A DNA stretch of 64,000 nucleotides from Sphingobacterium wenxiniae (GTDB lineage: Bacteria > Bacteroidota > Bacteroidia > Sphingobacteriales > Sphingobacteriaceae). The notes under the pieces are model-generated. The model ran no database searches. It was not told the DNA's origin and saw only the letters and a list, made by a program, of their open reading frames with translations. The stretch covers positions 372,001 to 436,000 of the forward strand of contig NZ_FOZZ01000002.1 in the NCBI RefSeq assembly GCF_900116225.1, read 5' to 3'. Positions 2,635 through 49,178 of this stretch are shown here, piece by piece (the stretch's first letter is position 1; each line of letters opens with the position of its first letter). Position numbers and translations under genes: made by a program.

Positions 2635-2707
2635 GATTCCGTAGCTCAGCTGGTAGAGCAATACACTTTTAATGTATGGGTCCTGGGTTCGAGTCCCAGC
2701 GGGATCA
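2635..2707 (+). tRNA. tRNA-Lys (anticodon TTT); ICE integration target
   Basis: The 73-nt cloverleaf has acceptor arms GATTCCG/CGGGATC with discriminator A, D arm GCTCAGCTGGTAGAGC, anticodon stem ATACA/TGTAT with loop CTTTTAA (anticodon TTT), and T arm CTGGG-TTCGAGT-CCCAG. CCA is not encoded. The integrated element begins right after its 3' end, and the recombinase frame reads antisense through most of it. Confidence 0.95.
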
Positions 2708-4247
2708 CATCTTGGGACAAGTCTAAAAATGATAGACTTGTCCCATTTTTTTTGCCTTGTAACTTACTGTTATTCTGATAGATAAGAGCAATCGCAGAAT
2801 TTAGCCTCGGAGTTCGATGTTGTGTTCCGTCAAATTCCAAAAAATCAGGGAACATCGAACTCACTATAAGCCTTTTTTCCTCAATATCGCCGTTTTCATA
2901 GCGTCTATCAATGTTTGCAACCTTTTTTAAGGTGGATGCTACCAAGTCTTTTATCTCCGTTCCCACTACTGCCAAGTCGTTTAATCTACGTTCCAAAACC
3001 TCAATCTTTCCTTTGGTCAATTTCTTTACTTCTTGGAAATCGTCATCTGCCATTTCTCCATCGGCATTTTTCAAAAGCGAATTTTGATAGCGTTTGTTCA
3101 ACGCATCAATCTCACCTATGATATTTGCCCGTTCCGTGTTTTGGGCTTTGGTTTTGTTATTGAAGTCTTTTATAAAGGCTTCGATAAAAACATCGACCAT
3201 ACCCTCTTTTGGTGATAGATGCCGTAACTGTTTTAAGAAAGCCTCATTGGTGGTTTCGGCTTTGAACCGTACTCCGCAGGAAGAAGTGCAATGATAGTAG
3301 TAATAGTAATTGCCCATCTTGCCCTTTGAGGCACTTCCTGTGAGCATCCTATTACAATTAGGATTAGGGCATTTAATAAACCCTCTAAGCGGTAGATTGT
3401 CCATAGCCACGATTTTAGGCTTTACAGCCCTCTTTCTCCCATCGAGAATATCCTGTACATCCGCAAATGTCTTTTCGCTGATTAATGGCTCATGCTGTCC
3501 TTTGACAAAATATCCCTTTTCCTCTTTGTAGGGAGGAATGAATATTTTGCCACAGTACAAGGGGTTTCGGACGGCTACCCAAAAGTTATTTTTGCTGAAC
3601 CGACCTTTTCCATCGGCTTTCTCCCGAACCATTTTCCATATCTGTTCCGTATTGAAGTTATTGGAAACGATTTGCTCAAACGCCCATTTTAATATGGGTG
3701 CTTCAAAATCATGGGGTGCAATGAACTTCTTTTTGCCCTCTGTTATCTTATTGACATATCCCAAAGGAGCAGTTCCCATATACCGCCCCTCTTTTTTCGC
3801 CCTACGCATTCCGTGAAAAACATTTAATGCACGCCTGTCGTTCTCAACTTCCGGTGAAGCGAGATAGAATGCAAGCATGATTTTATTTTCGGGAATGGTA
3901 AGGTCTAAGGGCTGTTCTATCGCAACAGGCTCAACGCCATGTGTCCGTAACTGGTTAATCATTTGGTACGCATCACCTGCGTTCCTACTGAACCTATCCC
4001 ATTTGGTAAATAATATTATTGACCCCGCTTTGTTGTTTTTTGTTTTACGCAGGTTGGACAAATATTTCTGCCACTCTGGACGTTTGAAAGATTTTGCCGA
4101 ATGGTCTTCTATGTAAACATCCCTTACCGGAATGCCTTTTATCTCGCAATATTTTCTTAATCGATCTTCTTGGTCACGTTGCGAATATCCCTTGTCCGCT
4201 TGCTCGTCTGTCGATACACGTATGTATAAATCTGCCTTTCTCATCAC
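2646..4247 (-). CDS. Large serine recombinase (ICE integrase)
   Basis: This enzyme should integrate and excise the ICE by site-specific recombination at tRNA-Lys. The N-terminal resolvase domain begins ADLYIRVSTDEQADKGYS, containing the catalytic serine (S13), and the hinge region has the family motif KWDRFSRNAGD (about residues 82-92). The middle recombinase domain includes PLGYVNK and NPLYCGK. A zinc ribbon follows (CPNPNC then CTSSC, about 294-328), then a coiled coil (about 360-440). The length of 533 aa is normal. The last residues (from about GLEPRTHTLK) are encoded by the antisense of tRNA-Lys and the stop codon lies in the tRNA D arm, so this C-terminus exists only in the integrated state. 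A 53-aa gene sits directly upstream. Confidence 0.93.
   Translation of the reverse strand: MMRKADLYIRVSTDEQADKGYSQRDQEDRLRKYCEIKGIPVRDVYIEDHSAKSFKRPEWQKYLSNLRKTKNNKAGSIILFTKWDRFSRNAGDAYQMINQLRTHGVEPVAIEQPLDLTIPENKIMLAFYLASPEVENDRRALNVFHGMRRAKKEGRYMGTAPLGYVNKITEGKKKFIAPHDFEAPILKWAFEQIVSNNFNTEQIWKMVREKADGKGRFSKNNFWVAVRNPLYCGKIFIPPYKEEKGYFVKGQHEPLISEKTFADVQDILDGRKRAVKPKIVAMDNLPLRGFIKCPNPNCNRMLTGSASKGKMGNYYYYYHCTSSCGVRFKAETTNEAFLKQLRHLSPKEGMVDVFIEAFIKDFNNKTKAQNTERANIIGEIDALNKRYQNSLLKNADGEMADDDFQEVKKLTKGKIEVLERRLNDLAVVGTEIKDLVASTLKKVANIDRRYENGDIEEKRLIVSSMFPDFLEFDGTQHRTPRLNSAIALIYQNNSKLQGKKNGTSLSFLDLSQDVIPLGLEPRTHTLKVYCSTS
2713..2757 (+). terminator. Rho-independent terminator after tRNA-Lys
   Basis: A 12-bp perfect stem, TGGGACAAGTCT with AGACTTGTCCCA, and a 9-nt loop are followed by a run of eight T. 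A diverged copy of the same hairpin sits at the right ICE junction (42594-42632), so it is probably part of the element end rather than the host. Confidence 0.8.
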
Positions 4248-31766: not shown

Positions 31767-31769
31767 AAA

Positions 31770-33238: not shown

Positions 33239-33247
33239 TAGCGGATT

Positions 33248-33649: not shown

Positions 33650-33661
33650 CAAAACCTTATT

Positions 33662-33898: not shown

Positions 33899-33974
33899 AA
33901 ATGAGTAATGCCTAAGCACCAAGATTTAGACATTTTTTCAAAAACCAGCGTATCAAGATTTCAAGGTAATAAAA

Positions 33975-34802
33975 ATGGATAAATTTTATAATGAAACTCT
34001 GCACAAACTGGAAATTGCAATCAAAGATTACGAAATTGAAACCGATTGCTCCATACAACGGATGGAGGCTGTAATACACCTAATTGTAGAATGCCTTTCC
34101 GATGTAAAAGGATATGTCTTAAAAAAAGGGTTTAAAAATGTGAATGAAGAAATCCGTTTTTTCAAATATCAGAAACCTGCCATTGTTGCGAAACTCATTT
34201 ACTACAATGCCATTTATAAAATCGAGACAAAGAAACCTTATGGTGCAAAGCCCATAAGGAAATACCTTAACAAAGAACTGAAAAAGCTAAAAAGGTTCTT
34301 TGACAACAACCTCGATTTTTACAAGTATTACCGTAGCAATAACTCGTTCCTTGACGAGAAAATGTTTTTAAGGGGCAACCACGATATAAAGCTATGGTTG
34401 GACACTTATTATTTTCAGTCTGACCAGTCCTTTTCCACCTCACATGATTACAAGGTCGCCAAGATAATAGCAAACGATTTGATACAGGTTTACATCGAAG
34501 ACCTGTTATATAACAAATTCCAAAAAGACAAATCGAAAGCCCAAAAGAAGCTGAAATGGACAGATAGCAAAGTAGCCTTGATAGAACTGATTTATGCCCT
34601 GCACTATCAAAATGTATTTGACAACGGGAACAACGACATAAGGGAAGTCGCCCAATATTTTGAAAGTGCCTTTGGTATTGACTTGGGCAATTTCTATCAG
34701 ACCTATTTGGAGTTGAGAAACCGGAAGATGAACCGTACTAAATTCCTTGATGCGCTTCGGGAGGAACTTATACGGAGAATGGACGAGCAGGACGAAAAGT
34801 AG
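33975..34802 (+). CDS. rteC: RteC-family regulator (copy 1)
   Basis: The 275-aa protein matches RteC, which in CTnDOT activates excision genes in the tetracycline cascade. Typical segments are NVNEEIRFFKYQKPAIVAKLIYYN (quoted in part EIRFFKYQKPAIVAKLIYYN) and the C-terminal DSKVALIELIYALHYQNVF and KMNRTKFLDALREEL. A second, clearly diverged copy is at 39257-40105 on the other strand. No rteA/rteB two-component genes or tetQ are present in this element, so its inducing signal is unknown. Confidence 0.85.
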   Translation: MDKFYNETLHKLEIAIKDYEIETDCSIQRMEAVIHLIVECLSDVKGYVLKKGFKNVNEEIRFFKYQKPAIVAKLIYYNAIYKIETKKPYGAKPIRKYLNKELKKLKRFFDNNLDFYKYYRSNNSFLDEKMFLRGNHDIKLWLDTYYFQSDQSFSTSHDYKVAKIIANDLIQVYIEDLLYNKFQKDKSKAQKKLKWTDSKVALIELIYALHYQNVFDNGNNDIREVAQYFESAFGIDLGNFYQTYLELRNRKMNRTKFLDALREELIRRMDEQDEK

Positions 34803-34819
34803 GGTTTGGGCGTGCCACC

Positions 34820-34915
34820 GTCTGCATTTTAACCCCCATGCCCAGGCTAACGAAAAAATGCAGACGGGTCGGGCTATCCGCTATATCTTTTGCGGATCTG
34901 CGAGGACCGCAAAAG
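34820..34915. terminator. Two adjacent hairpins between convergent rteC and topB
   Basis: GTCTGCATTTT (34820-34830) pairs with AAAATGCAGAC (34855-34865), and CTTTTGCGG (34887-34895) pairs with CCGCAAAAG (34907-34915). They lie between convergent genes and may act as bidirectional terminators. Confidence 0.5.
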
Positions 34916-34964
34916 GATGTCGCTTCTATCCCTCACGCTGTATGCCGTCCAAAAAACAAAACAT

Positions 34965-37049
34965 TTATTTCCTTTTTGGTTTCCTGTTTTCAAACTCAAA
35001 GGAGGTTTCGGCTTTATCATTCATGACGATATAGGCATTGAATTTATTGCCCGAATTGCTTTTCATGCCTTTGATAAGGTTGGTCTTTCCTTTGGTCACA
35101 AGGCTCTCTATATCGGCAACGCTCAACGGCACTCCGCACACGATACGGAATTGAAGCCAACCACAAGCCTCATCGGGGCATTTTACAACCTTGTTCCAAA
35201 TCAATAGCTGACGGCTCTTACATTTGGGGCAGGTCAGTTCCAGTTGTTTTTCATTGGCAATGCCCGTGTCCAAAAGTTCCCGTGTAATGGAAGTGGCATA
35301 GGCTTCCATTTCACGGTGAAAAGTACCTGCATCCGCCTCGTTGCTTTCGATTTTCTGCAATGCCATTTCCCATTCGGCGGTCATGGCTACATCGGCAATC
35401 TTTTTGCCTTTTACTGCCCCGTAAACCTGCAATCCCTTATCGGTAGGGATAAGGGATTTCTTTTCACGCCTAATGTAATCCCTCTTAAAAAGCGTTTCTA
35501 TAATGGATGCTCTTGTAGCAGGTGTACCGATACCGATGTCTTTTAGGGCTTTCCGTTCGTCCTCGTTATCAATTTCCTTTCCGGCATTTTCCATTGCGGA
35601 CAACAGACCTGCCTCGGTGTAAAGCACAGGCGGTTTGGTCTTCTTTTCCAGTACGGATGCCTCTTTGATTTTCAGCTCATCGCCGACCTTTAATTCCGGC
35701 AGTTCCTGCACAGGTTCGCTGTCCTCATCAGTAAATTTTTCTTTGATGCCACGCCAGCCGGCTTCGAGGATTTTACAGCCTTTCAATGTAAAATCATAGT
35801 GAAAAGCCTGCAATCCGATGTCCGTTATTTCTTTGGTACAGGCAAGTGAAAGGGCTTCCAACAGGCGGTACGCAATCATATCATAGATAACGTTTTCGTG
35901 TGCCGTTAATTCGGACGGGATTTTTTCGGTAATCAGCAGACCGTGGTGGTCTGTGACCTTTACATCATTCACGATGCGTTTGTTGAAACGCCCCCATTTC
36001 ACTTTTCCGACCGCTTTTTTGCAGGAAGCCCGTGCTTCCAAATTCCTTACCAGTGCAGGGATTTCCGACCACATATCTTCGGGGATGTACTTGCTCCCTG
36101 TACGGGGGTAGGTGATAAATTTCTTTTCATATAGGCTTTGGGCAATGTTCAATGTTTCCTCGGCAGTATAGGATGCTCTTTTATTGGCTTCTTTCTGTAA
36201 TTCCGTAAGGTCGAACAGCAAAGGCGGTTGCTCCGTAGCTGTTTTGGTTTCCACTGCCGTAACGGTTGCTGTTCCGTTACGCTGAATAGATTTCAGCGTA
36301 TCGTCAGCGAGTTTCCTGTCATCCCATTTGGTCTTTGAAAGGCTCTTAAAGTCTGTAAATTCCTTGCGGTGTTCCAACTGGATTTGAAAGTATTTCTTGA
36401 CGGCAAAGTCTTTGTTTTCCAAATACCGCTTGCAGATGAGGGCAAGCGTTGGCGTTTGTACTCTACCAAGCGAGTAAACGCCACGCCCTGCCGAAATACT
36501 CAATGCCTGCGAGGCATTGATGCCCACAAGCCAGTCGGCTTTGCTCCGCCCTTGTCCGGCACGGTATAGCCCGTCAAATTCGCTTCCGGCTTTTAAGTTG
36601 TCAAAGCCCTGTTTAATCGCCTTTTCCGTGAGTGAGCTTATCCATAGACGTTCAAAGGGCTTACGGCATTTTAGATATTCATAGATGTACCTAAAGATGA
36701 TTTCGCCCTCACGTCCGGCATCGGTGGCCACGATGATACTATCGCATCTACCGATGACCTGTTCGATAATCTTTAACTGTTTTAATGCCCCGTTATCGGG
36801 AACATAACTTTTGTCCTTTTTTATCTTCCGTACCGTAAGTATAAAAGGGTCGGGCAATATGGGCAGGGCTTCCCTTTGGAAGCCCGATACCCCGTAATCT
36901 TCGGGCATCGCCAGTCCGACCAAATGCCCCAATGCCCACGTAACTTCATAGCCGTTCCCTGTTAGGTAGCCATCCCGTTTTTCCGTTGCTCCCAACAGGG
37001 TAGCTATTTCCCTCGCCACACTTGGCTTTTCTGCAATGATTGCTTTCAT
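34965..37049 (-). CDS. topB: DNA topoisomerase III (TopB)
   Basis: A type IA topoisomerase of 694 aa. The Toprim domain starts MKAIIAEKPSVAREIATLLG and includes IIVATDAGREGEIIFRYIYE (the D-x-G-R-E-G-E variant of the Toprim metal site). The active-site region is YEKKFITYPRTGSKYI, with the nucleophilic Tyr about residue 314. A C-terminal zinc-finger-like part has CPKCKSRQLLIWNKVVKCP. Element-borne TopB is common in Bacteroidota conjugative elements and is thought to resolve DNA during excision or transfer. It heads the backward-reading topB-DUF3945-HTH group. Confidence 0.95.
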   Translation of the reverse strand: MKAIIAEKPSVAREIATLLGATEKRDGYLTGNGYEVTWALGHLVGLAMPEDYGVSGFQREALPILPDPFILTVRKIKKDKSYVPDNGALKQLKIIEQVIGRCDSIIVATDAGREGEIIFRYIYEYLKCRKPFERLWISSLTEKAIKQGFDNLKAGSEFDGLYRAGQGRSKADWLVGINASQALSISAGRGVYSLGRVQTPTLALICKRYLENKDFAVKKYFQIQLEHRKEFTDFKSLSKTKWDDRKLADDTLKSIQRNGTATVTAVETKTATEQPPLLFDLTELQKEANKRASYTAEETLNIAQSLYEKKFITYPRTGSKYIPEDMWSEIPALVRNLEARASCKKAVGKVKWGRFNKRIVNDVKVTDHHGLLITEKIPSELTAHENVIYDMIAYRLLEALSLACTKEITDIGLQAFHYDFTLKGCKILEAGWRGIKEKFTDEDSEPVQELPELKVGDELKIKEASVLEKKTKPPVLYTEAGLLSAMENAGKEIDNEDERKALKDIGIGTPATRASIIETLFKRDYIRREKKSLIPTDKGLQVYGAVKGKKIADVAMTAEWEMALQKIESNEADAGTFHREMEAYATSITRELLDTGIANEKQLELTCPKCKSRQLLIWNKVVKCPDEACGWLQFRIVCGVPLSVADIESLVTKGKTNLIKGMKSNSGNKFNAYIVMNDKAETSFEFENRKPKRK

Positions 37050-37153
37050 GATACTATTTCTTTTAATGGATTATGTGGTGAACATTTCTCTTTGAGAAAC
37101 CCCTTCGTATTCTGTGAAAGGGGATTTCCAAAGAAAAATGTTTTTTGATGGTG

Positions 37154-38596
37154 TTATCTTCTTACCCCTCTGGATTTTGCCGGAGCGATGGGAGCGTTCT
37201 GTCGTTGCTGTTGCCTTGTATTTTTCGGCGTTTGTTGCTCCGGTTTTAGAGGCTCGTTGATATGCTTGGTTGCCTCGTTGGTTTTCCCGTTGGAGTTTAC
37301 GGCAACCTGTGTTTTGTGCGCTTCGGCAGGCTGTACCTTATTTTTCAGCGCATTGGGTTTTTTAAAACTGAAATCATAACCCCCTGTTTCCTTGTTCAGC
37401 GTAACGTAGCCTTTGTAGGCATTTCCCTGTCCGTCTTTGAAATCCGAAATATAAAGGGTCTTGCCCTCGGTGAGTTGCTTGTACTGTTCATCGGAGAACA
37501 CCTTATTTCGGAACATTTTCGGGTCGTTTTCCTGTGCCTGTTTGGGGGCTTTATCGCCAAAAAGAAACTCCGTATATTTTTTGTCGGCGTTGAACTGCAC
37601 ATGGGCATTTTTGTTCGTACTGTTCTTAAAATCCAACCCCTCTAAATAAATGGCTTTCCCATCTTTTAAATCCCGTTTTTGGTCTTCGGTCAACTTTACG
37701 CCCTTAATCTCATCGGGTACTTTTATCCTGTCCTGCCGGAATGCAATAACCTCATTCGTTAGGTGGTCAATACTGATAATGGACGGTATCTTTTCGCCTG
37801 TCTTGCGGTTGGTCAATTCCACCACACGCCCCATGTTTCCGGTTTTGAGCAGGTTTTCCCTGTCCTCTTTGGTAAACTCGTGACCAAAGAAAGGGGCTTT
37901 AAGGTTGGGTTCATGGCGTACACCATACATCATAAGTACAGGTTTTCCGTCTTCACCGTCTTGGAAACCGAGCCTTGCATCCGAGCGCATGATAACCGCA
38001 CCGAAATTGACACTTGTGGGATATACTTTATTGGTCTTATAGCCCTTTAACAGCAAATCCAATTGCCCGTCTTTTTCAAGCCTCTCTTTGTTTATCCCAA
38101 ATTGCGCTAAATAATTCCAGTCCACATCTTCCGCCTTATAGCGGTATTCGCTTTTTTCCGGTGCTTGCTGTGTTTCCGGTGTCGCCTGTGGTGTTTCCAC
38201 ATCCTTTTTGGTTTCCTGTTGTTGCTCCTTTGGCTCTTTGACCTCATGCTTTGCCATGACAGCCTCGCCCTCTTTGGTGGGGGCATTGACCTGTTTCTGC
38301 ATTTCTTTGGCGGTTTCGACCGCTTCCTTTGCAGGTACTTTGAAAAATGAGAAATGGGTTGGGTCTTTAAGCTGTCGCCAAAAGTTGGAGAAGAAATTTG
38401 TAAACAAATCTCCGGCTCTGTCAACCCGCATAAATTGGCTTTGGTTTTTCTTGGTGGCATCAACGGTTTTCAGATTACCGTTTTCGTCAACGCCCGTAAC
38501 GGCTTGGATTTTCTTTTTTTCCTTGTCCATCACCAACAGCACATCCGAAAGCTGTTCGGGATATTGCTGTGGATTTTCATTTGTCTGTTCGCTCAT
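37154..38596 (-). CDS. DUF3945-domain protein
   Basis: The 480-aa hydrophilic protein has a short conserved N-terminal region (SDVLLVMDKEKKKIQAVTGV), a low-complexity Glu/Lys/Gln linker (about 118-150), and repeated DUF3945 units (KLTEDQKRDLKDGKAIYLEG; QYKQLTEGKTLYISDFKDGQG), ending in a basic proline/glutamine tail. It is standard in Bacteroidota conjugative elements next to topB, but its role is unknown. It is 104 nt upstream of topB in the same direction. Confidence 0.85.
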   Translation of the reverse strand: MSEQTNENPQQYPEQLSDVLLVMDKEKKKIQAVTGVDENGNLKTVDATKKNQSQFMRVDRAGDLFTNFFSNFWRQLKDPTHFSFFKVPAKEAVETAKEMQKQVNAPTKEGEAVMAKHEVKEPKEQQQETKKDVETPQATPETQQAPEKSEYRYKAEDVDWNYLAQFGINKERLEKDGQLDLLLKGYKTNKVYPTSVNFGAVIMRSDARLGFQDGEDGKPVLMMYGVRHEPNLKAPFFGHEFTKEDRENLLKTGNMGRVVELTNRKTGEKIPSIISIDHLTNEVIAFRQDRIKVPDEIKGVKLTEDQKRDLKDGKAIYLEGLDFKNSTNKNAHVQFNADKKYTEFLFGDKAPKQAQENDPKMFRNKVFSDEQYKQLTEGKTLYISDFKDGQGNAYKGYVTLNKETGGYDFSFKKPNALKNKVQPAEAHKTQVAVNSNGKTNEATKHINEPLKPEQQTPKNTRQQQRQNAPIAPAKSRGVRR

Positions 38597-38683
38597 GATA
38601 TTGATTTTTTAAAGTTTACATTGTCCGAAAGTAGGCGAAGCAGGTACGGCATAGCCGTACCCGTCTTTTCGTGGTAGGGTTTG

Positions 38684-38992
38684 TCATCGGTTTTCTTTTG
38701 TACGCCGTAAGGGGGCTTTAAAACTTTCCCTAATGAACTGGTGTACATCCGATAGTTTGTAGTACAGCTTTCCGCTAATGGTGTAATATGGTAGCTTGCC
38801 CGTGGAGCGGTATCGTTGCAGAGAACGGTGGCTGATTTTCAGCATGAGAAGCAGGTCTTGGTTGTCCAGTAATTCCTCGCCGTCTATGCTGTGCCGTTCT
38901 TTCTTGATGTTTAGGACGTACTCTTTCAAAATATCGAAACGCTCCATTATACGTTCCATCCATGCGATAAATTCCATTCTGTCGATGTTCAT
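38684..38992 (-). CDS. Helix-turn-helix protein, excisionase-like
   Basis: The 102-aa protein ends in a MerR/excisionase-type HTH: LLMLKISHRSLQRYRSTGKL and then PYYTISGKLYYKLSDVHQFI, the wing pattern of Xis-like proteins. The N-terminal part is a short helix. It is upstream of the DUF3945 and topB genes and may be the recombination-directionality or excision factor of the element, as similar small HTH genes (exc/xis region) are in CTnDOT. Assignment to excision is inference. Confidence 0.72.
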   Translation of the reverse strand: MNIDRMEFIAWMERIMERFDILKEYVLNIKKERHSIDGEELLDNQDLLLMLKISHRSLQRYRSTGKLPYYTISGKLYYKLSDVHQFIRESFKAPLRRTKENR

Positions 38993-39256
38993 AGCAATAC
39001 TTTTTAATGATTTCTAACACCACAAAATTGGAGCGATTGGCGCAGGCTGTCTTCCGATACGTGTCTATCAAAAAGGCACTTTTTTCATTTTTTTACAATT
39101 CGTGTAAAGTGCTGTTTTTGGAGGCTTTTCGCACTTTTGGTCAATCGGTCGGCATCCAAATCAATTGATTTGCCGATAGACACATATAGGCAAACGGGCA
39201 AAAAAAAGACAGCACCGATTGATGCTGTCCTTTTTGATGGAAAGAGAAGACAAAAA
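38993..39256. promoter_or_regulatory. Regulatory stretch between rteC copy 2 and the HTH gene, with dyads
   Basis: Two dyads stand out: TTTACA-N5-TGTAAA (39092-39108), operator-like, and a 9-bp inverted repeat GTGTCTATC (39061-39069) / GATAGACAC (39175-39183) spaced 105 bp apart. Repeated GCACTTTT-like words lie between them. The stretch is non-coding and upstream of the HTH-DUF3945-topB operon, so it probably controls that operon; RteC or the HTH protein are natural candidates to bind. Confidence 0.45.
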
Positions 39257-40105
39257 TTATAGGTTGTCTTCCCTGTCCATATATTCCTCTAAACTGTATT
39301 TGAGTTGGTCTAAAAACAATGTGCGTGAGCCTGCACGGGTCTTCATCCGGTGGAAGCTGTTATGTATGTCGTTCAGTGATACACGGAACAGGATTTGGAA
39401 AACCATGCTGATTTTGCGGATGCCTATTTTCCCATGTGAAATGGCATCGCAGGCGTAAAGAGCATAAATCAATTCGATAAGGGCATTTTTTGTCTGTGTC
39501 CAAAAGAAGTCTTTTGTTTCCTCGTGTTGTAGCAGTACATCGGGATTTTGTTCGGGGCTTAGCTTTGTCGTCAGATAGTTATAGATTAATTCGTTGGCTA
39601 TGATTTTCGCCACTTTGTAATCAAAGTAGGTCGAAAATTTGGGGTCGATTTCAAATACAAAGCTGTTCAGCCCGTCATAGCAGTTGATTTTGCCAAGAGT
39701 AAAGTATTGTTCATCTCGGTCGGTTCTGCCCGAACGGTAATAGCGGTAAAAATCGGAATTGCAGACATGCTCGGTATATTCCAGTTTCAATTCACGCAGG
39801 TGCATGGCAAAATAGCTCTCATACATATTTCCATTGCTTGCTGGGCAGGCAGTTTCAATTCTAAACACTTTGTTATAATAGATGAGCTTACCAAGAACGG
39901 AGGGTTTTATCTGCTTAAAGAAAAGGATTTCGTCTTCTAATGTTGTGAAGCCCTCGTTTATAATATCTTCTTTGATGTCTGCGAGAACCTCTTTCAGATA
40001 GACCGTCATCCTGTATGCCTCGTCCATAAAACTCGAAGCCTCCGCCGACAATTTACGTTCCTGTTTCTGTATGTCGGAGACGATTTTGTGTAATAAGTGT
40101 CTCAT
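39257..40105 (-). CDS. RteC-family regulator (copy 2)
   Basis: The 282-aa protein shows the RteC pattern: TLEDEILFFKQIKPSVLGKLIYYN (quoted in part ILFFKQIKPSVLGKLIYYN), FDYKVAKIIANELIYNYL and the C-terminal TKNALIELIYALYACDAI. It is aligned end to end with the copy at 33975-34802 but clearly diverged, so this is not a recent duplication. It sits upstream of the excisionase-like gene in the same direction, the arrangement expected for an activator of excision genes. Confidence 0.82.
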   Translation of the reverse strand: MRHLLHKIVSDIQKQERKLSAEASSFMDEAYRMTVYLKEVLADIKEDIINEGFTTLEDEILFFKQIKPSVLGKLIYYNKVFRIETACPASNGNMYESYFAMHLRELKLEYTEHVCNSDFYRYYRSGRTDRDEQYFTLGKINCYDGLNSFVFEIDPKFSTYFDYKVAKIIANELIYNYLTTKLSPEQNPDVLLQHEETKDFFWTQTKNALIELIYALYACDAISHGKIGIRKISMVFQILFRVSLNDIHNSFHRMKTRAGSRTLFLDQLKYSLEEYMDREDNL

Positions 40106-40373
40106 AATACTAAAGGTTTAAAATGAAGCCAATATGCCTCTCCAAATTTTACGATTAGTACCGAGCTTTTTTCATGAGACAGGACGAAGTAGGGGAAGAT
40201 AATTAAAGATTAAATGAGCATCTTATTCCTTGTTTACGCTTTGACAACATCATTTTTATGATATTTTTATCTATATTGTCAATATTTTTTGTTTCAGCCG
40301 TCTTTACTGATTTCTTTTAATCTGTAAAAACGTTATCAAACCGTATGTAACTTTTAAAACCAACAAATTAAAT
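40106..40373. other. Intergenic region before the GAPS4-like locus
   Basis: AT-rich divergent region between rteC copy 2 and the defence-like pair. It should contain both promoters, but I see no clean consensus pair. It also marks a drop in GC toward the right end of the ICE. Confidence 0.35.
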
Positions 40374-41309
40374 ATGGGAGAATGGTCGAAATCCATTGGA
40401 GAAAAGGGCGAATATATAGTCAAATTTATTTTTGAAAATATCTTGAACTTCAACTCTTTAATAGAAAACCCTTCAATCGACTGTATTAAGGGCTTTAAAC
40501 ATAAAGACAAATATGCAGAATCAAACAAATCGTCTCACGGAATAGACGGGCTGATTAGCTATAAAAGTCCATTAGAAGACTATAGTCTTGACATCGGCAT
40601 TATTTCATCTAAGTATGTAGGAGGTGAATACCCCAAATATCCGTCAACCCTATTCAAATCCCACATAAAAGATTTAGCTCAGACTTTAGAGTGTTTTTAC
40701 AACTCTAAATTAAAAAACAATATAAATCAGAATTTTACAGGTGTTAACAAAACAGAAATTTTCGGCATTTTAGTTTGGTTGTCAAATACAAGTGATTTGA
40801 ATTTTGATTTAGTCTCAAAGGTTGATAACATTCAAATTGATACGGACTTAGTTTTTGATAAAATAATACTATTGGACAATAGCAAAGTCAATTTCTTATA
40901 TGAGAGTATCTTTAGAACAAAAGAAATATTTGGGAACGATAATGTTGATTTTGTCTACCACAATAGTGGTCTAAACTTCACTTCCATTCAAGAAAACTCT
41001 TATGGAAAAATCTTTCCTTTAAACTATTTATACTCCGACATAATTGCACTAAGGACAGCAAAGAACAACAGAATTACATTAAGTATATTCATAAATGATG
41101 ACTTCGAAGAAGAACAATTTGTACAACTTTTAAATTTTGCAAAATCATTTGACCATTTAAATGCAGTTGATAAAATAATCTTGAGCTATAAGACGTATGA
41201 TTATTTGACAAATGAAAATATTGTGAAAGAAAAGCTTGTAAAATTTCCGATGTATAAGCTCGGTGAAAATTTAGAAATAAAGAAGTTCCCGTCTGATTTT
41301 AGAAATTAA
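40374..41309 (+). CDS. GapS4a-like protein with PD-(D/E)xK nuclease-like N-terminus, candidate defence
   Basis: The 311-aa protein begins MGEWSKSIGEKGEYIVKFIF and has a restriction-endonuclease-like pattern: E13 in the first helix, D58 in HGIDGLISY, and IGIISSK (K80), where the usual E/D-x-K reads S-S-K. Together with its 368-aa partner it resembles, from memory, the two-gene GAPS4 antiphage system (GapS4a plus GapS4b). The gene is AT-rich, opposite to its rteC neighbour and at the extreme right end of the ICE, a usual spot for exchangeable defence cargo. The nuclease call is by motif only; the family name needs a profile search. Confidence 0.6.
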   Translation: MGEWSKSIGEKGEYIVKFIFENILNFNSLIENPSIDCIKGFKHKDKYAESNKSSHGIDGLISYKSPLEDYSLDIGIISSKYVGGEYPKYPSTLFKSHIKDLAQTLECFYNSKLKNNINQNFTGVNKTEIFGILVWLSNTSDLNFDLVSKVDNIQIDTDLVFDKIILLDNSKVNFLYESIFRTKEIFGNDNVDFVYHNSGLNFTSIQENSYGKIFPLNYLYSDIIALRTAKNNRITLSIFINDDFEEEQFVQLLNFAKSFDHLNAVDKIILSYKTYDYLTNENIVKEKLVKFPMYKLGENLEIKKFPSDFRN

Positions 41310-41313
41310 TGAT

Positions 41314-42420
41314 ATGAATAAAGATATTTTACCTCAAGGAGATTATATAAGACAGCTACTTGTTAAATCTAATGTCACAAACGCAAACATAAACTTTCTT
41401 ATGAGAGAAAAAGGAGTGTTTCTTGGTCATAACGAGAAGAATAACTCTGTTCCATTGTTAATGAAAAGTGTTATAAGTCCGAGGGATTATTCTGTTTTAT
41501 ACGACACGCAAAAAACGAAAGAAGAAAGTATAAAATATAGGACTTCTTCAATCAAATGCAATTCAGACTTTGATTTTACAGATATTTTTGATACTGCAAT
41601 TGACTTGCATACTCTAATTGTTGACAAACATACATACAAACCAAATTATAAAATCATTGGTAATCCAACTTTCTATTTCGAAGACGAAAACACTGCAATA
41701 TTTGAATATCAGATAGAACGAGAGAACCTACTTAGTGATTGGACAAATAATAAAACCTATCACAACGGAGCGATAACACTGAAGAAAGTTTCTGAACAGG
41801 ACATTCAGATTTCAGTGCAACAAAACTCAACATCAAAAGAGACTTTTGAAGTCAATAATTTGATTATGAATGTGGTGAAAGAAAAGCTCTTTCAAAAATC
41901 AATAGTCAGTTCAAATGATGATATTATTACCGTTAAATTTAATCATTTTGATAATTCTTCAAGAATTAAATTTTTCTATTCCTTTGCAAGTGACTTCAAT
42001 ATTTATCTCGAATTCAAATCTATAACTGACATTGATGTTTATTTAGATGAGAATGTTGAAAGCCATAACGATGTAAAGATATTTTTAGATGAAATAGACA
42101 ATTTAAAACTGAATGGAAAAGGGCTACAGAACCACATATTACTTAATAAGGTCGAATACTTTCCCAAATTAATATTTGGCGCAGTAAAATTTAGATATAA
42201 ACTGAATTATAGTGGTATTGAAGGCTTTGCAATAATTAATCTTGGCTTTCCTGATTATGTGAAATCTAAAGACGAAAATTCAGATTTTCAAATTTCAATC
42301 GACTTAGTTCTAAGTAAACAGGACAAAAATCAAAAAACTGACAATGCTATAAGAAAAAAACTACTGGAATTATTTGAAATTAAAAAAGTTGAAAGCTATG
42401 AAAAATTCAAAATAATATAG
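41314..42420 (+). CDS. GapS4b-like partner protein (368 aa)
   Basis: The 368-aa product starts MNKDILPQGDYIRQLLVKSN and continues with INFLMREKGVFLGHNEKN, an N-terminal helical domain, followed by a beta-rich middle and a C-terminal domain with no motif I recognise. Its start is 4 nt after the stop of the nuclease-like gene, so the pair is surely cotranscribed and likely forms a complex. The order and sizes fit the GAPS4 two-gene system as I remember it. No membrane segment or signal. Function beyond that inferred. Confidence 0.6.
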   Translation: MNKDILPQGDYIRQLLVKSNVTNANINFLMREKGVFLGHNEKNNSVPLLMKSVISPRDYSVLYDTQKTKEESIKYRTSSIKCNSDFDFTDIFDTAIDLHTLIVDKHTYKPNYKIIGNPTFYFEDENTAIFEYQIERENLLSDWTNNKTYHNGAITLKKVSEQDIQISVQQNSTSKETFEVNNLIMNVVKEKLFQKSIVSSNDDIITVKFNHFDNSSRIKFFYSFASDFNIYLEFKSITDIDVYLDENVESHNDVKIFLDEIDNLKLNGKGLQNHILLNKVEYFPKLIFGAVKFRYKLNYSGIEGFAIINLGFPDYVKSKDENSDFQISIDLVLSKQDKNQKTDNAIRKKLLELFEIKKVESYEKFKII

Positions 42421-42560
42421 CTGAGGATATTACCTTTTAAATTTTCTCCCTTTAATGGTAGATATGGATTCTTTAGTTTTATTAATCTTTTCCACGAATA
42501 TATCAGATTGGTACGGACTGTCTTTAAGTTGGTTTAATCGTCTTAAATCTTCCAGAAAGG

Positions 42561-42593
42561 AGTTCGAGTTCTGTACCAACGGGTTCACCTCCA
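42561..42593. other. tRNA-3'-end-like sequence at the right ICE junction (putative attR)
   Basis: GAGTTCGAGT...ACGGGTTCACCTCCA aligns with the T arm and acceptor of tRNA-Lys (GGTTCGAGT...GCGGGATCACATC) with several mismatches and a 5-nt insertion. It is directly followed by the same terminator hairpin and recombinase 3' end as at the left end, which fixes it as a junction. Confidence 0.55.
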
Positions 42594-42632
42594 GGGACAA
42601 ATCTGAAAACAACAGGTTTGTCCCTTTTTTTT
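42594..42632 (+). terminator. Terminator hairpin, diverged copy of the one at 2713
   Basis: AGGGACAAATCTG pairs with CAGGTTTGTCCCT, followed by a run of T. It is homologous in position and sequence to 2713-2757. Confidence 0.65.
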
Positions 42633-42778
42633 TCTTGTAACTTACTGTTATTCTGACAGATATACGTTGACTCTGAAATTATTTTCGGGGTTCGATGTTG
42701 TGTCTCGTAAAATGATCGAAATTTAGGGAACATCGAACCCAATTTTGCCCATATTCTTGAGATATAATTGATTTTCAA
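42600..42778 (-). pseudogene. C-terminal remnant of a second serine recombinase
   Basis: Translated on the minus strand this reads GSMFPKFRSFYETQHRTPK then YICQNNSKLQEKK, matching the end of the intact recombinase (SSMFPDFLEFDGTQHRTPR ... IYQNNSKLQGKK). The DNA is also alignable (42636-42745 with about 2755-2862). All the rest of the gene is deleted. Confidence 0.8.
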
Positions 42779-42799
42779 TTTATTACACCATTTTATTAA

Positions 42800-43065
42800 A
42801 AAGTAGGCATGCTATTCGTTTCATTTTCACGGGCAAAGGTAAATCAGTGTTTTTACGCTTTACAAGGTCAAGCCTTCGGTTTGCTAAAAAAATTCCATCC
42901 GCTTTTGGCGGATCGTATTTTTCAGTCAAAACCTTGCTTCAGCGAAACACTGACCTTTTTGACCCATGAAACGAAACATAGCATACTCCGACCTTTGAAC
43001 GAATAAATGGTAGTGATAGAGAAACAAAACAGCACCTCCTCTCATTACCGAATAAATAAAAAGAA
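42800..43065. pseudogene. Remnant of the ardA upstream region of a related element
   Basis: The stretch aligns with about 4805-5075 of the ICE: shared words include GAAACGAAACA-AGCATACTCCG and CAGCACC-CCTCTCATT-CCGAATAAAT. The ardA gene itself is absent. With the recombinase remnant it defines a collapsed left end of a second ICE. Confidence 0.7.
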
Positions 43066-43252
43066 GTTGTCAGACTGATATATAGAAAGCCGTCATGCCT
43101 TCCTGCAATCTTGCCCTCTGTCTATCAAGGCAGACGTATGGCTTGAACGCAAGCAAGCTCGGCTGATGGCCATCCTAAAAACTTAGAAACTTGCTATAAA
43201 GCTGGTAGAGAAAGTCCGCTCGGACAACCCTATGATGCTCCTACAGTACGGA
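43066..43252. other. Short non-coding remnant region
   Basis: No gene is seen. The words GCCGTCATGCCTTCCTGCAAT and GGCTTG resemble the pyrimidine-rich repeats before the mob genes (24300-24420), so this may be another piece of the decayed element. Confidence 0.35.
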
Positions 43253-43505
43253 ATGACACCAAGATCAACATTCCTAGTCATCGTAGCAGCAATCGCAGCA
43301 TTGAGTATTCTTGTGGTATTGCATTTTGGTATTGCATTTTGGTATTGGCGATAGCCAGGCTACGTCATTTTTCAGCCTTATTATCGTTCCGCTTGTCGGT
43401 ATTATGGTTTGGTTTACGTTCAAAGACCGACTACATACCGTTGCCCGTGGGGAAACCGTTCCGCAAAAAGTTTTCCCGGGTGATATTGATAGATTGAAAA
43501 AATGA
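43253..43505 (+). pseudogene. Small membrane-protein gene broken by a 13-bp tandem duplication
   Basis: From ATG 43253 the frame reads MTPRSTFLVIVAAIAALSIL and then hits a stop after a duplicated 13-mer ATTGCATTTTGGT (43318-43330 and 43331-43343). Removing one copy joins it to a downstream frame (GIGDSQATSFFSLIIVPLVG, then WFTFKDRLHTVARGETVPQK) ending at 43505. The restored protein would be about 79 aa with two membrane helices. Its stop overlaps the start of the next gene (ATGA), so they were an operon. Confidence 0.7.
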
Positions 43506-43957
43506 AAAAAGACGATAAAAACCATCGGATATACGAGAGCAAACGACAGCCGACCCTTTATTTCATCAGCATTATCACGGTGGCATTGTCCATCTTTGTG
43601 TTTTATATGATATTCTCGGATTGGGAAGAATTTGCTTTGGAATACAGTTCCGAATTTTCGGCAGTGGCTTGGACAGTATATATGCTCGTTGCAGGAAATG
43701 CAATGTTAGTCTGTATGCTTTGGATGAACGGTAGATATATTTTACAGATAAAAAAAGCTGACGAAAATTATATTTTTATAAAAACATGGTCAATTCTTGG
43801 ATTTCATAAAACACGTAAATACCCTGCCGATATACTCAAAACGACAGTTTTTCATAAAGGTATTTCCAAATATCCGAATACACCTGTTGTGGTTGCACCT
43901 TACTCGGTGATAAAGACTCCCAAAGGCAAAAAGTTGATTTTGGATGAAGCAAGATAA
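43502..43957 (+). CDS. Hypothetical membrane protein with PH-like C-terminal domain (151 aa)
   Basis: Two membrane helices (about 19-40 and 55-76) are followed by a beta-strand-rich cytosolic region (YILQIKKADENYIFIKTWSILGF) and a short motif HKGISKYPNTPVVVAPYSVI. This layout resembles bacterial PH-domain membrane proteins, but I cannot assign a family. It overlaps the broken gene upstream by 4 nt. Confidence 0.55.
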   Translation: MKKDDKNHRIYESKRQPTLYFISIITVALSIFVFYMIFSDWEEFALEYSSEFSAVAWTVYMLVAGNAMLVCMLWMNGRYILQIKKADENYIFIKTWSILGFHKTRKYPADILKTTVFHKGISKYPNTPVVVAPYSVIKTPKGKKLILDEAR

Positions 43958-44024
43958 TTTATATCTGTAATATGGTTTATGACTTTTAGATTATATGCAT
44001 TCTACTAATTTTGAAACTGTTTTT

Positions 44025-45137
44025 ATGATGAAAAAATTTTTAATTAGAAGTATGCAGATTTTACTTATCCTCGTGGTACTTATAGTCGTTGGAGGATTTT
44101 TATATATGTTTCATCCACGCTTTGGTACAAATGCATCAGGGGAGCGTCTTACGCTTATGGAGGGGAAACCTAATTTCAAGAATGGATCTTTTGATAACCT
44201 GGAACCTACACCTGCATTGGCCGAGGGAACGACATATAGTGATATTATGTTGAGCTTCTTCAAAAAAAGAGAACGTAATGTCCCTAAAGATCTTATTCCT
44301 GTAGTGAAGAGCAATCTACACGCTCTTCCATTGGACAGTAATGTATATGTGTGGTTCGGGCACTCATCTTATTTCATGCAGTTGGATGGAAAACGAATTC
44401 TGGTTGATCCTGTTTTTAGTAAGTATGCTACCCCAGTACGCATTAGTGTACGGGCATTCAATAGCACGTATGATTATACCGCTGCAGACATACCTGAGGT
44501 AGATATACTTTTCATTTCGCACGATCATTGGGATCACTTGGATTACAACACCTTTATGCAGCTGAAAGGTAAAATCAAACATATTGTTACTGGGATAGGA
44601 GTAGGGGCTCATTTGGAAAAATGGGGATATCCTGCCAATCAGATTACGGAGTTATATTGGGGAGAAACAGCTGAAGTAGCCGGTTTTTCAATAACTTCAA
44701 CGACAGCAAGACATTTTTCCGGCCGTGCATTCAAAAGGAACACGAGCCTTTGGTCTTCGTTTGTATTGAATGGAAGCAAAAAAATCTTTGTAGGTGGGGA
44801 TAGTGGTTACGGCAAACATTTCAAGGAAATTGGAACGCAATATGGTCCATTTGATTTTGTAATTTTAGAAAATGGGCAGTACGACAAAATGTGGCATTAT
44901 ATCCACATGATGCCGGAAGAGGTTGTCCAGGTCGCACAAGAGTTACAAGCTGCGTATCTTATTCCTGTCCACTCATCCAAATTTCCATTGGCGAACCATT
45001 CCTGGGACGATCCGCTTATTCGTGTTACCACAGCGGCACATGCAAAGCACGTGGATATAATCACTCCACAGATAGGGCAAGTCGTCTCTCTGGATAGTGT
45101 TCCTGAAACCAGTGCCTGGTGGGAAGGTCTTGATTAA
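44025..45137 (+). CDS. Membrane-anchored MBL-fold hydrolase (NAPE-PLD/UlaG-like)
   Basis: An N-terminal hydrophobic anchor (about residues 8-27, ILLILVVLIVVGGFLYM) precedes a metallo-beta-lactamase domain: VWFGHSSYFMQLDGKRILVD, the zinc motif SHDHWDHLDY, a later histidine in TTARHFSG, GGDSGYGKHF, and IPVHSSKFPL. The order matches the NAPE-phospholipase D-like and UlaG-like group, which act on phosphodiesters or lactones. It acts outside the inner membrane. ATG at 44025 or 44028 are equally good; the one at 43995 is unnecessary. Confidence 0.85.
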   Translation: MMKKFLIRSMQILLILVVLIVVGGFLYMFHPRFGTNASGERLTLMEGKPNFKNGSFDNLEPTPALAEGTTYSDIMLSFFKKRERNVPKDLIPVVKSNLHALPLDSNVYVWFGHSSYFMQLDGKRILVDPVFSKYATPVRISVRAFNSTYDYTAADIPEVDILFISHDHWDHLDYNTFMQLKGKIKHIVTGIGVGAHLEKWGYPANQITELYWGETAEVAGFSITSTTARHFSGRAFKRNTSLWSSFVLNGSKKIFVGGDSGYGKHFKEIGTQYGPFDFVILENGQYDKMWHYIHMMPEEVVQVAQELQAAYLIPVHSSKFPLANHSWDDPLIRVTTAAHAKHVDIITPQIGQVVSLDSVPETSAWWEGLD

Positions 45138-45165
45138 ATTTGATGGAATTCCACAATAAGCTGTA

Positions 45166-46506
45166 TTAATAGACTATATTTCCTTCGTGTATAAGTGATT
45201 TCACTTCGGAAATTCGAGATACTGCTTCAGCTGAGCAACTTGCATCAACTAACACAATATTGGCTGCATCACCGGATTTAGGCCATTGCTGTTCACCCAT
45301 ATTGTCCAATGGAAGTATATCGCCTGTAGCTAATTTTAAGCATCTGGAGAGTGAAAATTCAGTCGTATAACCATAAAGCTGTGCCATGAGATTAGCTTTT
45401 TGGAGAACGCTTCCGCTTCCAAAGGTATTCCAATGATCGATTATACTGTCATTACCGGTCAATACTTCAACGTTATGCTTATATATCATAGGTATTGGCA
45501 TAATCAAATTTCCAAATGGTATAGTAGAAACAATCCCTATTTCAGCAGCCCCCAACTGTTCGATAGTATCTTCTTGTACGTTTTTATCTAATTTTCCCAG
45601 AACAAAAGCATGACTTATATAAGTTTTACCCTTGAGAAAAGGGTTTTCGTTGACCTTTTGTATAAGATATTGCACAGTCTTTAGCCCTGATTCGCCGGTT
45701 TCATGTAGATGTAAGTCTATTCCTTTTTGGTTATCCAGTGCTAATTGAACCGTAAAATCTATGGTTTTCTCAATGGCACCATCGATCGTGTAAGGGTCGA
45801 CCCCACCAATAAAGTCGATATCCATTTGCGCAGCTTCCTTTAAATAGGGAGCTGAATCTGTGTAAAATACACCATGCTGCGGGAAGGCTACAATCTCAGC
45901 ACCGAAGCTGTCTTTTCTATTTTCAAGCGCCTTCTGTAGATTTTTGAGTGACTGTAACTTTGACGTAGGTTCGATATTTACATGACTTCTGGCAAACGAA
46001 GTTCCTTTTGATTGAAGTAGCACAATAAGTTTTTCAGCACGTTCAGTCGATGTCTTTAACATTCTAGGAAGTATTTCCTTTTCCAATGCAATCATCCCTT
46101 TGACACCTCCTGTTCTCCTTTGGGTAGCTTGCCAAGCGCCACCATAAAAGGTCTTGTCCAAATGGATATGCATATCTTTAAATGCCGGTAGCATTAAATA
46201 TCCTTTTGCATCAATGGCTTCAGAATCATCTGGTCTATTGGTTGATATTTTTTTTATCTTTCCCTCGGCAATAGTAATACAGTATAACTCCGTTTTCGTG
46301 CGGGTAACCTCGTCATCCATGTACTCAAAACCAGTCTCTAAACGGACATTCTTCAACGTATAATTTTTTGAGGGATATTCCGCCATGCCATCTTTTGTTT
46401 CATCGGTAGTTTGTGCATTCACTGTCTTTGGTACGAAGGCTAATCCCATAAGTCCTAATCCCGATTGTCTTATAAAATTCTTACGGGATAATACTTGTTT
46501 GCTCAT
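45166..46506 (-). CDS. Exported amidohydrolase, cytosine-deaminase-like
   Basis: The 446-aa protein has an N-terminal Tat-like signal (LSRKNFIRQSGLGLMGLAF, with R-K instead of R-R). The amidohydrolase metal site is visible as DMHIHLDKTFYGG, then DLHLHETGESG, SHAF and TGNDSIIDHWN. The closest layout is the cytosine deaminase/N-isopropylammelide hydrolase group. It would hydrolyse a C-N bond of a small amide or ring amine in the periplasm. It converges on the MBL hydrolase (28 nt between ends) and is divergent from an AraC-type regulator gene, suggesting regulation by that protein. Confidence 0.83.
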   Translation of the reverse strand: MSKQVLSRKNFIRQSGLGLMGLAFVPKTVNAQTTDETKDGMAEYPSKNYTLKNVRLETGFEYMDDEVTRTKTELYCITIAEGKIKKISTNRPDDSEAIDAKGYLMLPAFKDMHIHLDKTFYGGAWQATQRRTGGVKGMIALEKEILPRMLKTSTERAEKLIVLLQSKGTSFARSHVNIEPTSKLQSLKNLQKALENRKDSFGAEIVAFPQHGVFYTDSAPYLKEAAQMDIDFIGGVDPYTIDGAIEKTIDFTVQLALDNQKGIDLHLHETGESGLKTVQYLIQKVNENPFLKGKTYISHAFVLGKLDKNVQEDTIEQLGAAEIGIVSTIPFGNLIMPIPMIYKHNVEVLTGNDSIIDHWNTFGSGSVLQKANLMAQLYGYTTEFSLSRCLKLATGDILPLDNMGEQQWPKSGDAANIVLVDASCSAEAVSRISEVKSLIHEGNIVY

Positions 46507-46794
46507 AAATATAAAAAAGTGTCTTTCAAAGTAAAGTTACCTAATTATCTATATATAAAGTAATGTCGGGCTATGTTATTCAGGGCAAACGCATCTTGTT
46601 TTTATGTTTATAAATATACATCCCCGCACTTCTGTGATATGGCGAATAGTCTGATGCGACATTTTTTTGATTGAATCCGTAAAAAGTATCCATTTTCCAA
46701 TGAAAAAGTATCCGAATACACTTTCTTAAATACGCAATTTTGTATATTACTTTTAAGAGAAACGGTTAAGAAAATATTTAACATACAAGAATTT

Positions 46795-47688
46795 GTGAAT
46801 TATGCACAATTTTCAACTTTGAAAAATGATAATTTGCATATAGTCAATTTCGCAAACGAAAAGGATTTTCTGCGTAAATCCCAAAAAATCAATATTGATT
46901 TATATATGATGGCTATAAAGCCTCCTTTGGAAAAGGATCAGATTATCGATCAAAAATTTGAGGATCAGGCCAATTCTTTTTTATATGTCGACTGTCCACA
47001 GAACACGATGGCTTGGGATGTGAACGAACCAGATTCAGGATATGTTATTATGGTCGATGCAAAACTGATACATCGGGTTGCGAAGGAATATAACTTTGTG
47101 CATTACAACAACCACGAAGCATTGTATTTGACTAAAGATGACGAGGTTTTATTATGGGATTTATTCAAGAAGGCGTATGACGAGTTTCAAAAACCACAGT
47201 ATTCCCAAGATGTCATCGTATCTTACATCACGCTGATATTATCTTATACCCAGATTTACTACTCTACCTATAAACAAGAAATTATAAGACATACTGTTTT
47301 GGCTGGTATTTAAGAGTTCTATACGGTTTTTGCTACAAGAATAGCATCCACAGCAAGTATAAGTAAGAACGCTGAATTTCAAGCTGCATTCTTTGACTTG
47401 GTCTATACACACTACAGAAAAGAACATCAATTAGCCTATTATGCTGATCTATTATGTTTGACCCCGAAATACTTAGCGACAAAAATCAAACATTTGACTA
47501 GCAAATCAGCCAATGATTGGATTAATGAATTCTTGATCTTAGAAGCCAAGAGTTTACTCCAATCAACCAACAAAACTATTAAAGATATTGCCTACCATCT
47601 TGGCTTTCCAGATGCCACCTCTTTCGGGAAGTTTTTCAAAAACCATGTTGCCATGTCACCTAAACGATACCGTGAAATCAAAATTTAA
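46795..47688 (+). pseudogene. AraC-family regulator interrupted by one in-frame stop
   Basis: Two open stretches (46795-47313 and 47398-47688) are in the same frame, separated by a single TAA at 47311-47313. The first has the N-terminal ligand-binding domain (VDCPQNTMAWDVNEPDSGYV); the second holds the two-helix AraC HTH domain (YADLLCLTPKYLATKIKHLT and KDIAYHLGFPDATSFGKFFK). The frame also stays open upstream to about 46741 without an ATG, so the original start may be lost; GTG 46795 is the only candidate I see. It is divergent from the amidohydrolase gene, its likely former target. Confidence 0.8.
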
Positions 47689-47781
47689 AGACAGATTCTT
47701 ATTTTGACTTTTTGATTACTATGTTCAATTAATAATGGTTTAATTTTGTAGAAATTTTGAATTTGTTTAAAAATTGCGACT

Positions 47782-48591
47782 GTGTATTATAGAATATACG
47801 TACTATTACTTTTCTTCACTGCTTTTTTCTTTTCAGCTTGTAAACGAAATTTTCAGTATTCAGTACTTGAAGTAAGACCTTTGGATCGGGAAATCAATCA
47901 GAAATCCATAGCGGAGATCAATCAATTATCCCCGAAAGATACCTTTAGTTTTCTGATTATGTCGGATTCACAAGTGGCCTATAAACCCCTTGAGTCTTTT
48001 GTAAGACATGTCAACAAGACTTATGCAAAGGATAGCGTTGCGTTTATCCTACATGCGGGAGACTTTACGGATTATGGAGCAAACTTTGAATACAATCTTT
48101 ACCACGAGTTGACAGAGAAACTTAACTTCCCAGTCGTTGGCTGCATAGGCAACCATGATATGCTTGGGAACGGACAAGAAATCTATAGAAAATTCTTTGG
48201 TCCGGAGAATTTTACATTTACCTATGGAGCCAACAGATTCATTCTCTTTAACAACAATGGGAGAGAAGTTGGTTTTAATGGAACATTGCCTGATTTAAGT
48301 TGGCTCAACACTGAAATCCTTAATGCTAGAGAAGACAATCTATTCTTTATTTCCCACGTACCGCCGATGTCGGATGACTTTGATCCGGCATTAAGGGATG
48401 ACTTTGTAGACCTTTTGGCAGTAAATAAAAGCACACGCTTATCAATACATGGACATACACATTCTTTTGAATATGGTGAGTTTTTTAACGATGGTGTGCC
48501 TTACCTCGTCGTTCCTACATTGCTAAAAAAAGAATATGTTAAGGTCACCGTCTTTGGTAACGAGATACTTGTACAACAAAAATACTTCTAA
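47782..48591 (+). CDS. Calcineurin-like metallophosphoesterase lipoprotein
   Basis: The 269-aa protein (GTG start) has a lipoprotein signal (LLLFFTAFFFSACKRN, lipobox Cys about residue 20) and the phosphoesterase motifs IMSDSQVAY (D-x-Q variant of D-x-H), HAGDFTDYG, GCIGNHDMLG, FISHVPPM and SIHGHTHSFE (GHTH). It should hydrolyse a phosphoester in the periplasm or on the outer membrane. Its stop overlaps the next start by one base (TAATG), so it is coupled to an outer-membrane protein gene. Confidence 0.85.
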   Translation: MYYRIYVLLLFFTAFFFSACKRNFQYSVLEVRPLDREINQKSIAEINQLSPKDTFSFLIMSDSQVAYKPLESFVRHVNKTYAKDSVAFILHAGDFTDYGANFEYNLYHELTEKLNFPVVGCIGNHDMLGNGQEIYRKFFGPENFTFTYGANRFILFNNNGREVGFNGTLPDLSWLNTEILNAREDNLFFISHVPPMSDDFDPALRDDFVDLLAVNKSTRLSIHGHTHSFEYGEFFNDGVPYLVVPTLLKKEYVKVTVFGNEILVQQKYF

Positions 48592-49166: not shown

Positions 49167-49178
49167 TTGCTAAAGACC

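Follow-up and report, generated by a model that had tools for sequence, protein, structure and literature searches.

The GAPS systems were reportedly first described in Gamma-Mobile-Trio elements, and later work is said to deal with DNA-end sensing by GAPS4, which is given no weight here. For the fold of the second protein of the pair described below, the relevant known proteins are lambda RexA, RdgC, IML3 and CHL4, which have one common fold (PMC11077077; PMC4080450). RdgC dimers are described as rings with non-specific DNA binding (PMC11077077; PMC4080450) and lambda RexA as a phage-exclusion protein with the same fold as RdgC (PMC11077077).

The window analysed here is a stretch of 64,000 nucleotides from the genome of the soil-type bacterium Sphingobacterium wenxiniae. 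Judged by their profile matches, two adjacent genes in it belong to GAPS4, an antiphage system that already has its name.

The gapS4a-gapS4b pair and its linkage across genomes

The gene gapS4a (40374..41309, +) starts with ATG, encodes 311 aa and was assigned by its match to NF047933.1, its invariant residues and a structural model. The gene gapS4b (41314..42420, +), assigned by its match to NF047934.1 and a model, also starts with ATG and encodes 368 aa. Both lie on the same strand with gapS4a in front, and the spacer between them is 4 nt long (TGAT). Of the libraries used for the pair (NCBIfam, Pfam, PADLOC and PHROGs), NCBIfam was decisive. GapS4a matched antiphage_GapS4a (NF047933.1) with 301.3 bits at a cut-off of 270 (E 6.8e-90) and GapS4b matched antiphage_GapS4b (NF047934.1) with 390.4 bits at a cut-off of 300 (E 6.2e-117), the matches spanning positions 1-302 of 302 and 1-355 of 355 of the models, respectively. 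The Pfam scan of both proteins gave one row below and nothing above the cut-off, the PADLOC scan nothing above the cut-off, and the PHROGs scan a single, non-significant row (E 0.079). By sequence, no match to the pair was found in the PDB, a further search yielding one row only (E 0.37); the phage records searched held no match to it, and Rfam gave none over 38000-60000. On the sequence level, the pair is a complete GAPS4 locus with an intact catalytic motif and both frames at full length.

The sequence-only reading of this DNA had proposed a GAPS4-like pair of low GC content, made up of two ORFs 4 nt apart with a 368-aa partner as the second. Both ORFs are present as described, and in the HMM search that it had suggested both proteins exceed the curated NCBIfam cut-offs over the full models. 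The GC content of the pair is indeed low (0.292), compared with 0.406 in the ICE and 0.408 over the whole window. It had also named independent occurrence of the homologues as evidence against a GAPS4 pair, and the co-occurrence survey described in the following led to the rejection of that possibility.

The GapS4a profile search (E <= 0.001) resulted in matches in 5 of 296 phylum, 6 of 395 class and 11 of 251 family genomes; these draws overlap and comprise 18 distinct genomes with any GapS4a match. In 15 of the 18, gapS4b is adjacent or fused to gapS4a. The remaining three contain a fragment (G597), a stretch of 59 residues inside a 426-aa ORF that was dropped as a chance match (G753), and a very distant cousin (G811). 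The reverse search with GapS4b gave matches in 5 of 296 phylum and 10 of 251 family genomes, all of them among the 15 linked ones except G658, whose match of 45 residues (E 6.4e-4) was likewise dismissed as chance. Outside the draws, both genes are present in all five further genome contig loci (two of which come from the strains of G863 and G661), in both plasmid records and in all four viral contigs, the fourth of which, L049, was judged from ORF coordinates alone. The four viral contigs were obtained by an alignment search, single-protein scans of viral contigs having given no match. Tail-type genes upstream of the pair were read from the translations in L048-L050 (in L049 from ORF lengths only), and a relative of the L050 pair, annotated in RefSeq as GapS4a/GapS4b, is present in 4 of 5426 complete E. 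coli genomes.

The GapS4a-like protein of G811 (L046 8928-11593) carries D...E-S-K, scores 30 bits at the cut-off of 270 and is encoded beside a 356-aa gene. The N-terminus of this neighbour is similar to that of GapS4b, and its hhalign probability against GapS4b is 0.5%. In another relative, G812 (L041 9779-10636), a gene for an Mrr-type restriction endonuclease (Mrr_cat, 8.7e-10) is located upstream of gapS4a.

The carrier ICE and exchange of the pair

The carrier of the pair is a CTnDOT-like ICE at tRNA-Lys. The tRNA-Lys gene (2635..2708, +), detected with ARAGORN, is the insertion site and marks the left end; the homologous ICE of Pedobacter sp. BS3 (G661) also starts at tRNA-Lys. A large serine recombinase, the probable integrase, is encoded at 2646..4247 (-; Pfam Resolvase 6e-24, Recombinase 4.4e-11), making the carrier a serine-recombinase ICE. 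The conjugation genes found in the window are those for TraG, TraJ, TraM, a relaxase, a coupling protein, a TopB-type topoisomerase and two RteC proteins. One RteC-family regulator (39257..40105, -; Pfam RteC 1.5e-71) adjoins gapS4a. The right end lies past gapS4b (42421..42588, unstranded) and was placed by the identity limits to two other ICEs: identity ends at 42588 in the comparison with the ICE of Sphingobacterium humi (L001/G863) and at 42585 in that with the BS3 ICE, and the flanks diverge beyond these limits. Based on the tRNA-Lys at the left and the stop of identity at the right, the ICE extends over approximately 2709-42588 (~40 kb), and gapS4b ends 168 bp short of its right end (~42588). 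At and just past this end, positions 42524-42860 repeat parts of 2709-2880, where the serine recombinase gene encodes its C-terminal end; they look like what is left of another element at the same tRNA-Lys site.

Between the window and the S. humi ICE, gapS4a is 99.8% and gapS4b 99.9% identical, whereas their left neighbours are 81-87% identical (next RteC gene 81.2%, intergenic stretch 87.3%); topB is 94.7% identical and the backbone of the S. humi ICE differs by 5-10%. In the comparison with the BS3 ICE, the values are 95.7% for gapS4a, 95.6% for gapS4b and 76-90% for other genes. A near-identical pair on a diverged backbone implies that the module moves as a block, by recombination. The earlier placement of the pair at the distal end of an ICE, as swap-in defence cargo, therefore agrees with both the identity limits and the identity values. 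All three ICEs compared carry the pair; as they were located via gapS4a, no frequency follows from this.

Decay of such loci does occur, as gapS4a of G771 contains an in-frame TAG and G597 retains a fragment only. That the locus in the window is likewise silent or decayed in function, although intact in sequence, is improbable in view of its full-length frames, the presence of all invariant residues and the 99.8-99.9% identity to the S. humi copy.

The ICE carries a second antiphage gene, DS8_antiphage (DS-8; 18797-21829; NF053861, 927.7 bits at a cut-off of 790), which encodes a metallophosphatase plus NTPase and is low in GC. Resistance-type cargo is located at 26589-28483 and 32522-33235 and comprises Adenyl_transf (aminoglycoside adenylyltransferase family), a lincosamide nucleotidyltransferase-like protein and a MerB alkylmercury lyase. 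An ArdA antirestriction protein is encoded near the left end (4984-5622). The traG gene (15275-17832) is split into two ORFs overlapping at TTGA, owing to an insert of ~50 bp (around 16451-16488) at the Walker A motif. The insert contains an inverted repeat of 13 bp, and the second ORF still reads GSGKS. This palindrome is present as a single copy in the genome of the window. The same insert lies in traG of two other genomes, whose regions are ~94.6% identical (3 of 151 family-draw genomes, that of the window included), and traG of the BS3 ICE is intact (835 aa).

Active site and predicted folds of GapS4a and GapS4b

GapS4a carries E13, D58 and S78-S79-K80. Across 21 aligned GapS4a-like sequences, near-duplicates included, the E13 column is E in 17, the D58 column D in 20, and the S78 and K80 columns S and K in 18 each. 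The exceptions all stem from three fusions and from L046, the distant cousin, which has E-S-K at the S-S-K site. All four residues are invariant among the 14 distinct two-gene members and in all eight sequences of a set including prophage members. Because S78 and K80 are invariant in the 14 distinct members, S-S-K is the family's own motif. The initial description as a PD-(D/E)xK-like protein with E13, D58 and K80 thus stands, but S-S-K is not a substitution for E-S-K, S-x-K being the normal motif here; the idea that it indicates an unusual or broken enzyme was rejected for the same invariance.

The AlphaFold2 model of GapS4a, calculated from an 8-row alignment, has a pLDDT of 73 and places E13 in helix 2-23, D58 just ahead of strand 59-64 and K80 in strand 71-82. 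The model shows the alpha-beta core of the PD-(D/E)xK superfamily, in which the central strands bear D and (D/E/S)xK. In VIA-align, residues ~1-220 matched PD-(D/E)xK enzymes of the PDB, namely McrC (Z 8.2, 4.4 A over 137 residues), Nt.BspD6I (7.6), FokI (7.5), Shedu SduA (7.1) and Hachiman HamA (6.6), and residues 168-311 matched ASFV RNA polymerase chain E (Z 9.4), CBASS Cap4 (7.1), BamHI (6.5) and the nuclease domains of Avs3 (6.4) and Avs4 (6.2). The Foldseek results are weak: the best row (E 3.8e-3) is an unrelated fold, Cap4 follows at 8.1e-3, and the nuclease rows range from 8e-3 to 0.15. Motif and model together point to a PD-(D/E)xK-type nuclease in the N-terminal part of GapS4a. The matching of the two regions to separate nuclease-like sets suggests two nuclease-like domains, of which the second (~168-311) is apparently inactive, its sequence having no evident active site.

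The GapS4b model (AlphaFold2, 8-row alignment, pLDDT 72.6) is of low confidence in residues 1-71. Its best VIA-align row is RdgC 2owl, matching residues 71-364 with Z 9.0 over 231 residues at an rmsd of 5.3 A, followed among others by RdgC 2owy (8.1), Iml3 (8.0 and 7.9) and CENP-L (7.1, 7.0 and 6.6). Among the 50 matches listed, all seven rows with at least 180 aligned residues are RdgC, Iml3 or CENP-L, spanning 182-231 residues of the model; a Z of 9.0 is barely above 7-8, the typical range of the tool for models without a clear match. The sole unrelated row to exceed Z 8 is that of spermine synthase (8.6), which extends over 98 residues. Foldseek returned unrelated folds in several other top rows. 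In BFVD, a phage protein named 'Exonuclease' matches GapS4b over its full length (probability 1.00, E 1.8e-4, TM 0.47 by target length), and the same word appears in the Pfam title of RdgC, 'Putative exonuclease, RdgC'. On the sequence side, GapS4b is without any Pfam match, none of 15 members matched Pfam RdgC (PF04381) up to E 10, and hhalign of GapS4b with RdgC gave a probability of 0.2%. From residue ~71 on, GapS4b is described here as having a predicted RdgC/Iml3-like DNA-binding fold, a model-based assignment with no sequence support.

The missing sequence similarity would also fit a different origin of the match, in which GapS4b is no kin of RdgC and merely has two TBP-like alpha/beta halves common to many unrelated proteins; START, AMPK and phosphoglucomutase domains indeed reach Z 6-7 with the model. 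These rows, however, cover 84-123 residues compared with 182-231 for RdgC, Iml3 and CENP-L, which moreover form an already recognised fold group, and a chance resemblance of this kind is considered a real but lesser possibility.

Variant loci, proposed action and comparison with known systems

In three relatives, G012 (895 aa), G688 (892 aa) and G736 (882 aa), a single ORF consists of an N-terminal domain, GapS4a and GapS4b. In G012, the fusion that was scanned, the N-terminal domain matched 'Effector', an endonuclease model of PADLOC (E 2.9e-14). The domain retains a V-D-I...Q-(I/V)-K-S motif in all three and is presumably Cap4-like. In the GapS4a part of each fusion, E13 is replaced and the K80 column gapped, so that by its residues the GapS4a active site is decayed in 3/3; the fusions score under both NCBIfam cut-offs. 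The FastTree tree does not place them (support 0.505), and a derived state of the fused form does not follow from it. The fused locus of G012 (L018 4915-12267) lies beside a retron-like pair of a reverse transcriptase (RT_III-A, 1.8e-162) and PRTase_III-A (1.5e-139).

Directly after the GapS4 genes, 6 of 15 loci (G012, G688, G253, G285, G333 and G493) have a gene for a nucleoid-associated protein of the NA37 type (PF04245; E 2.1e-34 in G012). By BLAST, no NA37 was found among the ORFs of the window from 30000 to 50000 or of the other loci. As a control, NA37 was counted in 59 of 296 phylum genomes, with two copies in only four (G012, G253, G285 and G160), and for three of the four the second copy is the one beside gapS4b. 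A YejK-type domain is reported to be newly validated in defence (PMC13092281). The literature search, of partial coverage, found neither a mechanistic GAPS4 paper nor one linking NA37 or RdgC to GAPS4.

With a probability of about 0.8, the locus is read as a complete GAPS4 locus and exchangeable module at the ICE end, in which GapS4b would grip DNA, GapS4a would cut it and infection-type DNA might act as the trigger. That the pair protects against phages is suggested by its family name. From its fold and motif, GapS4a would be a metal-dependent DNA nuclease, and GapS4b, in analogy to RdgC and RexA, may enclose DNA in the manner of a ring or horseshoe, keeping GapS4a on it. The complex of both would be held quiet on host DNA, and phage (or plasmid) DNA might be cut once GapS4b meets infection-type DNA, for which free ends or replication and recombination intermediates are a guess.

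A nuclease acting by abortive infection would differ from this in that GapS4b senses a phage product and GapS4a attacks all DNA of the cell, which then dies. The matches of GapS4a 168-311 to Cap4 (Z 7.1) and to the Avs3 and Avs4 nuclease domains (6.4 and 6.2), together with the Cap4-like nuclease fused ahead of GapS4a-GapS4b in three relatives, speak for such a mode; Pfam, PADLOC and PHROGs, however, gave no signalling or phage-protein sensor domain in either protein, and the GapS4b model matches DNA-gripping proteins. Abortive infection is thus regarded as the weaker candidate, albeit one to be taken seriously.

The fusions also bear on the possibility that GapS4b is an antitoxin to GapS4a in a toxin-antitoxin pair that stabilises the ICE, with a secondary antiphage effect. 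The strict linkage of both genes would be expected of such a pair, as would their carriage by plasmids, by viral (prophage) contigs and at the end of an ICE. GapS4b, however, is bigger than its nuclease and still covalently attached in all three fusions that have lost the GapS4a active site, and its retention beside a dead GapS4a argues against an inhibitor and for a functional component. A toxin-antitoxin function is accordingly judged unlikely.

For the family as a whole, a modular organisation is put forward tentatively, at slightly below even odds: an RdgC-fold clamp would be combined with an exchangeable nuclease, GapS4a serving in one lineage as a dead scaffold under the Cap4-like fusion, and in several lineages a dedicated NA37/YejK paralogue would be the third component, which may mark or mask host DNA. 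If the RdgC-like reading holds, GAPS4 would join lambda RexA as phage exclusion built on a DNA-gripping fold of nucleoid and recombination proteins that also serves at the kinetochores of eukaryotes. The variants with NA37 or a Cap4-like domain would then be a natural test of host-DNA sparing. The locus adds to a known system, confirming GAPS4 in Bacteroidota, where it is traded between ICEs, and the family as a linked gene pair whose motif does not vary. What merits further study is the RdgC-like partner, together with the NA37 and fused variants.

The locus agrees with GAPS4 in both proteins, gene order, close spacing, full-length profile coverage and the active-site residues, which are invariant among the two-gene relatives gathered. 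It differs in its carrier, a CTnDOT-like ICE at tRNA-Lys instead of the Gamma-Mobile-Trio elements, a setting on which membership does not depend, and its GapS4a shares ~32-36% identity with the GapS4a proteins collected from gammaproteobacterial plasmids and viral contigs. DS-8 (NF053861), its neighbour on the ICE, is a single protein unrelated to GAPS4. Among the PD-(D/E)xK defence nucleases, SduA, HamA and McrC resemble GapS4a ~1-220 in the nuclease core and Cap4 resembles residues 168-311 in fold, whereas GapS4a has a serine instead of an acid two residues ahead of the lysine, a glutamate in the first helix (E13), and no helicase, SAVED or AAA+ partner. The group of RdgC, lambda RexA and Iml3-Chl4 (CENP-L/N) is similar to the GapS4b model at 71-364 but without detectable sequence similarity, and GapS4b differs from it by the additional N-terminal ~70 residues and by its nuclease partner.
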